Below the pieces are notes generated by a model. The model was not told the DNA's origin, did no database searches, and was given only the letters and a program-made list of their open reading frames with translations. From Nocardia elegans NBRC 108235 (lineage in GTDB: Bacteria > Actinomycetota > Actinomycetes > Mycobacteriales > Mycobacteriaceae), in NCBI RefSeq assembly GCF_001612845.1, contig NZ_BDBF01000016.1, positions 62,001-126,000 on the forward strand: a stretch of DNA of 64,000 nucleotides. The letters run 5' to 3'. Shown here one piece after another: positions 34,983 to 63,571 of the stretch. Each line of letters starts with the position of its first letter. Position 1 is the first letter of the stretch. The position numbers were made by a program, and so were the translations under genes.

Positions 34983-35420
34983 TTACAGCGAGACGAGTGC
35001 GGTGATCTCACCGGCCAGATGCGGTGCGCCGGCGGCCACCGACAACAGCCCCGCGGCCTTTACCGCCTGATAGCCACCGACCAGATCGGTGGCCCGGTGC
35101 AGACCCAGTTGCTGCAGTGTGGCGGCCGCCAGACTGGAGGTGTAACCCTCCGAGCAGACGATCACCCATTCGCGATCGTGATCGGTGGCCAGGGCGAGCC
35201 GCGCGGGGCTGGTGGGGTCCAGCCGCCACTCCAGCACATTGCGCTCGATCACCAGGGCGCCCGGCAGGGTGCCCTCCTTGACCCGCTGGGCTTGCGGGCG
35301 GATGTCGACCAGCAGGGCGCCGCGGGCGATCGCCTCCGGCAATTCGAACGCGTACATGCGCGTCAATCGCGCACGCGCCGCCTCCAGCATGTCGTTGATG
35401 GTGAGATGCGGGTACGTCAT
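34983..35420 (-). CDS. rhodanese-like sulfurtransferase
   Basis: A 145-residue single-domain rhodanese. LLVDIRPQAQR lies near residue 38, and the active-site loop CSEGYTS carries the persulfide Cys near 89. The ATG overlaps the stop of the cysteine dioxygenase gene as ATGA, so the two are coupled. Likely handles sulfane sulfur released from cysteine metabolism. Confidence 0.87.
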   Translation of the reverse strand: MTYPHLTINDMLEAARARLTRMYAFELPEAIARGALLVDIRPQAQRVKEGTLPGALVIERNVLEWRLDPTSPARLALATDHDREWVIVCSEGYTSSLAAATLQQLGLHRATDLVGGYQAVKAAGLLSVAAGAPHLAGEITALVSL

Positions 35421-36076
35421 TTCACATCGCCTTCGGGCTGGTCGGTGAGCACGGTCCGGGTACGTCGCAGCGTCCCGTGGCCGGTCACCTCGTAATACGA
35501 CATGGCGGACAGAGGTGGTGAATACGCGTGCACCGAGAGCGTCGGATTCGACGGCTCGGGCACACCCGCGAGCTGATCCGGGGCACGCACCACGTCGTGC
35601 ACCCAGCCGAGCGGGAACGAGGCCTGATCACCGGCCGTGAGAGTGCGCTGCCGCAATTCCTTGCCGTTCCAGCGGAATTCCGAGAGCGCGCCGCTCAGCA
35701 CGGTGAGCGCGCCGAGCGAGCCGGCGTGGTCGTGCAATTCCGTCGACCGGTCCGGCACCCAGCTGATCAGCCAGACATCGACCTCGTCGTCGGCGAGAAG
35801 CCGGACGGCCCAACGGTTTTCGGTGGGCCATACGCCACCGGACGGCAGCAGGTGGTCGAAGCGGCCGGCCATGACGTCCTCGGCGCCCTCGTCGGTCAGC
35901 CGCAGCAGATCCGCCGGGCGCAACCGGGTCGGCAATGCGGGCGACACCGAGCGATCGGTGATCTCGGCGGTGAGCCGGTTGGCCGGACGAGCGGGCGGCA
36001 ACTGCCCCGTCCGGCGACGCGCGGCGTCACCGCTCGCGGCGGAGGTAACAGCAGAGGCGAGGGCAGAGGAACGCAT
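35417..36076 (-). CDS. cdo: cysteine dioxygenase (cupin)
   Basis: A 219-residue thiol dioxygenase that oxidises cysteine to cysteine sulfinate. Iron ligands are the two His of ELHDHAGS and the His of GWVHDV. The Ser-His-Tyr triad of the family is intact in SVHAYSPP. An Ala/Arg-rich N-terminal stretch of about 40 residues precedes the cupin. The Cys that crosslinks with Tyr in animal enzymes is replaced by Gly, as in bacterial members. The ATG follows GGAG by 8 bases. Its upstream region holds a putative cysteine-responsive leader. Confidence 0.88.
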   Translation of the reverse strand: MRSSALASAVTSAASGDAARRRTGQLPPARPANRLTAEITDRSVSPALPTRLRPADLLRLTDEGAEDVMAGRFDHLLPSGGVWPTENRWAVRLLADDEVDVWLISWVPDRSTELHDHAGSLGALTVLSGALSEFRWNGKELRQRTLTAGDQASFPLGWVHDVVRAPDQLAGVPEPSNPTLSVHAYSPPLSAMSYYEVTGHGTLRRTRTVLTDQPEGDVK

Positions 36077-36166
36077 GAGCGAAGCTCCAGGAGTAGTGGA
36101 TGGCCGAGGGCGGATACGCAGCCTCGACAATCAGCCGAGGCGAATCAGCCTCGACAACACTCCTGG
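36077..36166 (-). promoter_or_regulatory. putative cysteine-responsive attenuator
   Basis: On the minus strand CGAGGC (36153-36148) can pair with GCCTCG (36141-36136), or the latter can pair with a second CGAGGC (36126-36121): two mutually exclusive hairpins. Separately CCAGGAGT (36166-36159), just before and including the first Cys codon of the leader peptide, is perfectly complementary to ACTCCTGG (36094-36087), whose last two bases belong to the cdo ribosome binding site GGAG (36088-36085). A ribosome stalled on the Cys codons would block that pairing and expose the site. The elements are read directly; the mechanism is inferred from cysteine-responsive leaders known in mycobacteria. Confidence 0.65.
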
Positions 36167-36186
36167 GTGCTCACGCGGAAAGTCAC
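36145..36186 (-). CDS. leaderless Cys-codon leader peptide
   Basis: A 13-codon open frame, GTG start, MTFRVSTQECCRG, with two adjacent TGT codons just before the stop. The GTG lies 7 bases after the -10 hexamer TAGACT, the spacing expected when the start codon is the transcript's first base. A second in-frame GTG is at 36174. The stop TGA falls in the loop of the first attenuator hairpin. It precedes the cdo-rhodanese operon and resembles the leaderless polycysteine short frames of mycobacteria. Confidence 0.65.
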   Translation of the reverse strand: MTFRVSTQECCRG

Positions 36187-36193
36187 GAGCCGA

Positions 36194-36221
36194 AGTCTAG
36201 CAGGGTGACCAGCGCGTGCAA
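36194..36221 (-). promoter_or_regulatory. promoter for the cdo leader transcript
   Basis: TTGCAC (36221-36216), 16-base spacer, TAGACT (36199-36194). The predicted start is the leader GTG at 36186. It lies just past the coaX stop. Confidence 0.5.
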
Positions 36222-36251
36222 GGCGGTGTGTTTCACCCCACAGCGCGCGGG

Positions 36252-37046
36252 TCACGGGCGGCGGCGCTGCTGGTTGCGCTCGTAGACCAGACGCAGGCCG
36301 TCCAGGGTCAGATGCGGCTCGTGGTGGTCGATGGTCTCGGATTCGGGGACGATCAGCGGTGCGGTCGGCCCCGTAGCCACCACCGACACATCGTCACCGG
36401 CGAAGGCGTCGAGTTCGTCGCGAATCCGGTCGATCAAACCGTCCACCAGGCCCGCGAAGCCGAACACCGCGCCGGACTGCATGCACTCCATGCTGTTCTT
36501 ACCCACCACCGAACGCGGGCGGGTCAGTTCCGCGCGTCGCAGCGCACTCCGGGCCACCAGCGCCTCGGTGGAGATCTCCACGCCGGGGGCGATCGTCCCG
36601 CCGAGGAACTCTCCCTTCGCCGACACCAGGTCGACACAGATGGCGGTGCCGAAATCGACCACGATCGCCGGCGAATCGAAACGATGATATGCCGCAAGGC
36701 AATTCACGATCCGGTCCGCGCCGACCTCTTTCGGATTGTCGACCAGCAGCGGAATTCCGGTGCGCACACCGGGTTCCACCAGCACGTGCGGCACGTGCGA
36801 CCAGTAGCGGCCCAACATGGTGCGCAACTCCCGCAGCACCGGCGGCACCGTCGACAAGGCCGACACCCCGACCACCTGGTCCAGCCGCTCGCCCACCAAA
36901 CCCCGTACCTGCATGGCGAATTCGTCGGCGGTCAGCAGCGGATTGGTGTGCACGCGCCAGGTGTGCACCAGCTCCGCATGCGCACCACTGCCCGAGAACA
37001 GGCCGATCTCGATACTGGTGTTGCGGACGTCGATCGTCAGCAGCAT
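36252..37046 (-). CDS. coaX: type III pantothenate kinase
   Basis: A 264-residue CoaX of the ASKHA fold, phosphorylating pantothenate in coenzyme A synthesis. [17 protein letters not shown] is the phosphate loop, [11 protein letters not shown] and [11 protein letters not shown] are conserved, and [11 protein letters not shown] follows. The kinase Asp lies in GADR. It sits downstream of panD and panC, as in mycobacteria (Rv3600c). Confidence 0.94.
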
Positions 37047-63456: not shown

Positions 63457-63571
63457 GGTCACGAGTACCAGCGTCAAGCCCCGGCTAGCTGGTCGGCAAC
63501 CCTCCTCCGCGGTGGGGTGCTCCGGGTGACGACCTGGCCGCTGCTCGACCGAGCACGGCAAGCGCGGACTC
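63457..63571 (+). ncRNA. SAM-IV riboswitch
   Basis: The stretch from GGTCACGAGTACCAGCGTCA through GCGGTGGGGTGCTCCGGGTG to AAGCGCGG matches the actinobacterial SAM-IV riboswitch in order and spacing: the multistem core with CCCCGGC and GGCAACCCTCC, the hairpin CTGCTCG...GAGCAC, and the distal GCGCGG for the pseudoknot. It would sense S-adenosylmethionine and reduce expression of the gene 47 bases downstream. Confidence 0.92.

Follow-up and report, generated by a model that had tools for sequence, protein, structure and literature searches.

The window, by which the whole stretch of DNA analysed is meant, comprises 64,000 nucleotides of Nocardia elegans NBRC 108235. A gene for a cysteine dioxygenase family protein of 219 amino acids (cdo, 35417-36076, minus strand; PF05995, E 4.4e-10) is followed on the same strand by a rhodanese-domain protein gene (34983-35420; PF00581, E 7.9e-12), which overlaps the cdo stop codon in an ATGA. 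Among the best 80 of 419 relatives, those of N. nova and N. africana were the closest, at 96-97% identity to cdo. Between the ORF at 36252-37046 and cdo, which starts at 36076, an ORF scan of the minus strand placed a -10 hexamer and a leader ORF. The hexamer TAGACT (36194-36199, minus strand) lies 7 nt before the leader GTG (36184-36186), the predicted transcript start, and the leader ORF (36145-36186, minus strand) runs for 13 codons, VTFRVSTQECCRG, from GTG to TGA; an earlier note on this DNA had described both elements, and both were found as described. The leader carries two Cys codons, TGT TGT (36154-36159, minus strand), which are the proposed sensor. At gathering score no Rfam family matched the leader locus, and the sole match in the whole window was a SAM-IV riboswitch on the plus strand (63457-63570, 112.6 bits versus a gathering score of 38).

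The cdo product scored 39.8 bits with PF05995 (cut-off 23) and contains the HxH and SxHxY residues; H115, H117, S181, H183 and Y185, taken here to be the catalytic residues, were invariant in 12 cdo orthologues. A profile of 12 orthologues placed 8qfl-8qfr, deposited as cysteine dioxygenase, nearest in sequence among solved structures (E ~2e-18), ahead of 3eqe (1e-7), presumably the B. subtilis protein, and of CDO type 1 entries. The alignment to 3eqe begins after the position of rat Arg60, which we take to be that of the substrate-binding Arg; gapless extension would place Ala/Val at this position and an invariant Arg two residues on. With their CDO_I and rhodanese domains, cdo and its neighbour represent sulfur-metabolism target genes. 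A second CDO-family gene (L002, G000:C36:49755-50069), 38% identical and followed by a rhodanese-like reading frame, was also noted, and no Cys-pair leader was seen by eye before it.

For comparison of the leader, the best 80 of 419 confirmed cdo relatives were taken, all of them titled Nocardia. The core GAGTGTTGTCGAGG (GAG TGT TGT CGA GG) was present 5′ of cdo in 80/80 of these loci, with TGT TGT in every one, and all 80 leader frames end ECCRG or ECCRGR, in keeping with the ECCRG ending noted earlier for the window. A TAnnnT motif preceded the leader start in 81/81 Nocardia leaders (the 80 and the window), with a spacing of 7 in 73 and of 6 in 8, versus a background of 1.7% of 16063 ATG/GTG triplets in 118 scanned sequences that included the whole minus strand of the window. 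The same scan found no SD-like sequence before the leader starts so identified. From the -10 spacing and the missing SD, the Nocardia leader is apparently leaderless.

Relatives of cdo (E up to 1e-20) were found in 128/201 genomes of the family, 113 of these outside the genus of the window, from which 55 cdo loci of 21 genera were drawn. In 44/55 loci and 16/21 genera, a short ORF carried two adjacent Cys codons close to its end; the reverse strand gave 1/55, and 40 dinucleotide shuffles averaged 1.8 loci, with at most 5. Glu-Cys-Cys was found in 37/55 loci and in none of the reverse-strand and shuffle controls. The Cys pair was missing in 11/55 loci (genera g7, g9, g13, g18, g19 and g30), some of which carry single-Cys frames when read by eye. 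In L147 and L173 (genus g19), for example, the place of the Cys-pair leader before cdo is taken by a short frame that has one Cys close to its end (VIHHPTSRRCRS). The leaders of L143, L169 and L170 (genus g11) end NRMCCR or NRMCCC before cdo in a different surrounding RNA, an apparent diverged sensor. Among other-genus leaders (n = 37), TAnnnT was present in 9, CAnnnT only in 24 and neither in 4 (either-motif background 6.7%); the absence of TAnnnT from 28/37 counts against the attenuator reading given below. Seven loci (L113, L127, L129, L132, L134, L137 and L138) were included in the Cys-pair, -10 and start-codon counts and stood outside the permutation, covariation, opening-cost, recoding and SD-unpaired sets described below.

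R1, a covariance model trained solely on 26 non-Nocardia rows, matched 148/148 genomes of the genus of the window (E 1.9e-6 to 9.6e-18). The R1 places compared by eye lay at the cdo start in 9/9 cases from eight genomes (G003, G032 twice, G057, G064, G083, G084, G113 and G126). In the genome of the window the leader was the sole R1 place below E 0.1, the only other match having E 0.66. Across 150 genomes of the order, searched with strict filters by which weak matches were lost, R1 gave 6 matches, all in the family of the window; two were in genus g29, of which at least 11 other genomes were without a match. The leader before cdo in G241 reads FQECC, and no Glu-Cys-Cys codons were found at the G294 locus.

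The leader strand can pair with the cdo start region in two helices. The 5′ arm of the helix designated H0, CGCGTGAGC (36169-36177, minus strand; codons CGC GTG AGC, Arg-Val-Ser), is complementary to the start codon region, and its 3′ arm, GCTCATGCG (36072-36080, minus strand; GCTC ATG CG), identified by folding and comparison, holds the cdo ATG (36074-36076). The 5′ arm of HA, CCAGGAG (36160-36166, minus strand; leader codons ending Gln-Glu), is complementary to the SD region, and its 3′ arm, CTCCTGG (36087-36093, minus strand; fold and RNAalifold consensus), overlaps the SD GGAG (36085-36088). Further hairpins involve leader codons Arg-Gly (segment 1, CGAGGC, 36148-36153), GCCTCG (segment 2, 36136-36141), a second CGAGGC (segment 3, 36121-36126) and CCTCGG (segment 4, 36104-36109), all on the minus strand; by row comparison segment 2 is common to hairpins 1:2 and 2:3, and by row comparison and pair probabilities segment 3 pairs with segment 2 when a ribosome is at Cys, or otherwise with segment 4. 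The two exclusive 6-bp hairpins sharing GCCTCG that the earlier note had reported were thus recovered, as was its 8-bp complement to the cdo ribosome site (CCAGGAGT, 36159-36166, with ACTCCTGG, 36087-36094). The H0 pairing of CGCGTGAGC with GCTCATGCG and the third hairpin, 3:4, go beyond that note, which dealt with a stretch ending just before the cdo start codon and therefore missed the 3′ arm of H0.

The leader RNA of the window folded at -58 kcal/mol with z -5.99, and 0/200 shuffles were as good. In this fold H0, at the start codon, and HA, at the SD, enclose hairpins 1:2 and 3:4, and segment 2 can switch to segment 3. Over 74 distinct Nocardia rows, 100% of cells were paired in 1:2, 97.7% in 3:4, 97.1% in HA, 90.7% in H0 and 100% in the alternative 2:3 helix; the four Nocardia helices (H0, HA, 1:2 and 3:4) were jointly 96.1% paired versus 34-43% when slid. 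The 1:2 core was invariant over these rows, and H0 was imperfect, with one pair broken in 18/74. Since segments 2, 3 and 4 lie downstream of the leader stop, their conservation is not due to the peptide. RNAalifold recovered HA, 1:2 and 3:4 from the 74 rows with a small covariation term (-0.75), and H0 was absent from its consensus of these rows. For other genera, 26 rows were aligned (A2) on a structure taken from one row, L149, and 89% of cells were paired versus 35-46% when slid; L151, L159, L171 and L172 (4 of 30 rows; genus g29, with different leaders) were dropped, a choice that favours the model. Most other-genus rows hold only 1:2, H0 and HA. A leader-to-SD spacing able to hold 3:4 was present in 81/81 Nocardia rows, 3/4 g22 rows and one g2 row, and also in L132 of g22. 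Segments 3 and 4 may have arisen by duplication of 1:2.

Compensatory change was counted against shuffles without correction for kinship. In the 26 other-genus rows there were 27 double-change cells versus 12.6 shuffled (0/500 as high), 7 pairs changed on both sides versus 4.9 (21/500), and further pair types at 104/500; in the 74 Nocardia rows there were 13 double-change cells versus 3.5 (0/500), 3 pairs changed on both sides versus 1.7 (83/500), and further pair types at 476/500. Compensatory changes in these alignments thus appear to exceed shuffles on some measures and are not exceptional on others. Individual cases included a double change from A-U to G-C in 1:2 in 4/26 rows outside Nocardia, and one 3:4 pair in Nocardia that was A-U in 56 rows, G-C in 11, G-U in 1 and unpaired in 6.

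The HA-only, duplex, SD-unpaired and opening-cost tests were confined to the 108 of 111 rows in which an SD was recognised, and in the first three the cdo start was misplaced in at least L046, L051, L053, L070 and L086. The duplex between leader and start region was stronger with its own partner than when re-dealt, at -23.6 versus -21.1 kcal in other genera (0/10000; 27 distinct pairs) and -24.3 versus -23.8 kcal in Nocardia (20/10000; 68 distinct pairs, a few with misplaced start). An HA-only permutation test gave no significant covariation (1226/5000 in Nocardia and 375/5000 in others). The cdo start codon was GTG in 13/118 loci, where the opposite leader base was C in 7 and U, giving a G-U pair, in 6; in ATG-start loci with a found partner (n = 93) the opposite base was U in 93 and C in 0, and 12 loci had no partner. 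Parsimony placed 6 changes at the start codon and 3 at its leader partner, and a tree-corrected independent-pairs test gave a median p of 0.5 with 4 pairs only, a number with which it could not reach significance.

Ribosome positions on the leader were modelled on the assumption that a ribosome covers the RNA from 12 nt upstream to 15 nt downstream of the first P-site nucleotide. In the window, the cost of opening the region from SD to start was 16.5 kcal in free RNA, 8.6 when Glu occupied P and Cys1 occupied A, 8.9 when P held Cys1, and 11.8 at the stop; the means for these four states were 14.8, 9.1, 9.4 and 11.1 kcal over 81 Nocardia and 13.4, 6.3, 6.5 and 9.9 kcal over 27 other loci. At Cys the cost fell more than 3 kcal below that of free RNA in 69/81 Nocardia and 22/27 other loci. 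The Cys pair was among the cheapest ribosome positions for opening cdo, and at the stop H0 and 3:4 can re-form. This measure was computed after the SD-unpaired probability had moved against the model, falling with the ribosome at Cys from 0.26 to 0.05 in Nocardia and from 0.30 to 0.14 in others; the printed folds for this state have weak local pairs at the SD. Start-codon exposure rose with the ribosome at Cys, from 0.21 to 0.60 in Nocardia and from 0.08 to 0.50 in others.

Pair probabilities in the window for free RNA were 1.0 for H0 and HA, 0.84 for 1:2 and 3:4 and 0.15 for 2:3. With the ribosome at Cys they were 0.01-0.26 for H0, 0 for HA, 0.97-0.99 for 2:3 and 0.01-0.03 for 3:4, and with the ribosome at the stop 1.0 for H0, 0.01 for HA, 1.0 for 3:4 and 0 for 2:3. 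The earlier note had suggested that the second hairpin pair might reverse the logic of simple stalling; in these computations a reversal is not borne out, as 2:3 is predicted to form in the state with a ribosome on the Cys codons, where both leader:SD and leader:start pairing is open, and H0 and 3:4 to re-form at the stop, so that the second hairpin would sharpen low-cysteine induction. In the 74 Nocardia rows, the 2:3 probability exceeded 0.5 in 20 in free RNA, which counts against an attenuator, in 58 with Cys1 in A and in 0 at the stop; for 3:4 the corresponding numbers were 46, 11 and 65, and the mean H0 probability in free RNA was 0.66. The predicted toggle is less clean over the 74 rows than in the window. 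Random synonymous change of leader codons 2-9 lowered the opening cost of free RNA in the window from 16.5 to 10.4 kcal (0/25 draws reached the natural value), and lowered the mean cost from 14.7 to 10.8 kcal in 66 Nocardia and from 13.4 to 9.8 kcal in 27 other loci, where 161/1650 and 116/675 draws, respectively, reached the natural value. This suggests that the leader codons may be under selection for RNA pairing beyond the peptide.

Comparison and computation together support a translational attenuator, and probably cdo and the rhodanese gene are ON when charged tRNA-Cys is scarce. Transcription would start at the leader GTG and ribosomes would load on the 5′ end, as suggested by the -10 spacing and the missing SD. 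On a ribosome-free leader, CGCGTGAGC and CCAGGAG would be base-paired to the start codon and SD of cdo (H0 and HA) around 1:2 and 3:4 and keep cdo off; this fold is a computed one, with conserved arms. When charged tRNA-Cys is scarce, a ribosome would wait on TGT TGT and cover the strands of H0, HA and segment 1, whereupon segment 2 is predicted, under the assumed footprint, to pair with segment 3 and free segment 4 and the cdo start region for translation of cdo and the rhodanese gene. When cysteine is sufficient, the ribosome would reach the TGA two codons on, 3:4 and H0 would re-form at once and expression would be off, with HA and 1:2 presumably re-forming after ribosome release. Most other genera examined would use a simpler form with 1:2, H0 and HA only. 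The control of cdo and the coupled rhodanese gene by a leaderless Cys-codon attenuator, proposed in the earlier note, gains support from the conservation of Cys codons and arms, and the comparison of cdo upstream regions that it called for gave Cys codons and arms kept in Nocardia, the Cys pair in 44/55 other-genus loci and compensation in some arms.

Three other readings were weighed against this attenuator. A ribosome at Cys might keep cdo off and the completed leader turn it on, through the second hairpin or by termination-reinitiation, so that the enzyme would be made when cysteine is plentiful. This would fit the usual role of a cysteine dioxygenase, and the window opening cost at the stop is indeed below that of free RNA, meaning that any ribosome traffic gives some opening; the region from SD to start was, however, more than 1 kcal cheaper to open at Cys than at the stop in 54/81 Nocardia and 21/27 other loci, and the H0 probability in the window is 1.0 at the stop and 0.01-0.26 at Cys, which makes the reading unlikely. 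The computed states instead suggest that the second hairpin reinforces the low-cysteine-ON logic. Mutually exclusive hairpins also recall trp-type attenuators, and the hairpins or a loss of leader translation could decide Rho-dependent or intrinsic termination before cdo, Rho having been suggested for cys leaders without terminators in passages of PMC1262725. Such transcription attenuation is considered very unlikely, as no terminator-like site was found in 35950-36300 and conserved pairing extends as far as the SD and the start codon themselves, which points to translation.

It is also conceivable, though very unlikely, that leader and structure regulate cdo with no sensing of cysteine, any leader translation opening the start and the Cys codons being kept for pairing. 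The leader codons do double as pairing strands, and 4/6 Cys-codon bases are paired in the window fold. Against this, the consensus helices of the 74 rows do not include the first Cys codon or the opening base of the next, which are nevertheless invariant, and the Cys pair is kept where other genera have different leader peptides (NRMCCC, SRRCCLG and VRCCR). The translational attenuator responding to scarce charged tRNA-Cys remains the preferred reading.

Cysteine dioxygenase usually serves in cysteine disposal, and induction at low cysteine is odd for a cysteine-degrading enzyme. Speculatively, this paradox is most simply resolved if the enzyme frees sulfur from a different thiol or works in sulfur redistribution; sulfur recovery would fit induction at low cysteine better than disposal of cysteine would. 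Some CDO homologues oxidise ergothioneine, and 8qfl-8qfr may be one of these; searches of literature and data gave no support for an ergothioneine link of the enzyme. The full proposal, in which a four-segment translational attenuator with a leader antisense to its target start gives cysteine-starvation induction of a CDO-family enzyme and rhodanese in Nocardia and has a simpler counterpart in related genera, and the enzyme recovers sulfur from another thiol and does not serve cysteine disposal, is tentative and as a whole somewhat doubtful. If true, cysteine-responsive leaderless attenuation would extend to a gene of catabolic appearance across a broad range of Actinobacteria, as a compact, highly conserved RNA switch whose Cys codons, arms and toggle are separately testable. 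A protein annotated as cysteine-degrading would be predicted to be made when cysteine is short, and its annotation or presumed role would need revision.

In trp-type attenuators a leader peptide precedes overlapping hairpins 1:2, 2:3 and 3:4, and the ribosome position selects among these hairpins. The Nocardia element has a leader peptide and overlapping hairpins of the same kind; unlike for trp-type attenuators, no intrinsic terminator (hairpin and T run) was found in 35950-36300, and its output would be start-site access. Closer to it are the mycobacterial leaderless polycysteine ORFs of Canestrari and colleagues, reported in 2020. In attenuators of this kind, as the earlier note also has it, a stalled ribosome frees a downstream ribosome site. 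Passages of PMC9031893 on Canestrari et al. 2020 state that contiguous Cys codons cause attenuation there, dependent on ribosome speed; Cys-rich leaderless uORFs before cysA2, Rv0485/Msmeg_0932 and nirA in mycobacteria are reported in PMC4633059, whose main text does not contain 'dioxygenase', and six predicted ORFs of the polycysteine kind in M. tuberculosis are given in a passage of PMC9094748. In passages of PMC1262725, short ORFs that carry Cys runs close to their stop are described for Mycobacterium, for Propionibacterium acnes and, in Bifidobacterium longum, upstream of cbs, and Cys leaders upstream of cys operons are said to have no conserved terminator-like hairpins, with Rho suggested.

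Among leaders of a different kind, the LEU element of leuA in Actinobacteria, as passages of PMC1262725 present it, differs in responding to leucine, in its pseudoknot and in its gene. The NCBIfam NF042934 cis_reg_atten leader, a 19-position profile, was rejected as a match for the present element, since none was found on C16, the cdo contig, and two sub-cut-off matches lay on C31 and C10 (150 of 261 candidates scored). One matched at 25.9 bits (cut-off 27) and is a Cys-rich leader-like frame on C31 near 96000 (L189, 1489-1674, minus strand) that ends MLTRRRTVDLCRLGGCCCLCM and is flanked by a thioredoxin-like gene and a DUF4395 gene. Among the literature titles and openings of abstracts listed for cysteine dioxygenase, none described the present leader element.

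Like the mycobacterial polycysteine attenuators, as far as the passages above describe them, the element is an apparently leaderless short ORF with clustered Cys codons directly 5′ of sulfur genes. Its Nocardia -10 element lies 6-7 nt before the start with no SD, as expected of an apparently leaderless transcript, and consecutive conserved Cys codons, two only here, stand near the short-ORF stop. A sequestered ribosome site that a stalled ribosome would open is indicated by comparison and computation, the SD-unpaired measure going the opposite way. Unlike the mycobacterial attenuators with targets cysA2, Rv0485/Msmeg_0932 and nirA in those accounts, the targets here are a CDO-family gene and a rhodanese gene, the leader is antisense to both SD and start codon, and Nocardia has a predicted four-segment toggle; unlike in the Actinobacteria cys-operon leaders as passages of PMC1262725 describe them, the mutually exclusive helices are conserved here and extend to the SD and the start codon. 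Compared with Canestrari et al. 2020, as represented in passages citing it, the target gene, the start-codon antisense helix and the Nocardia toggle seem new, and by analogy with the mycobacterial leaderless polycysteine attenuators the element would work like them.
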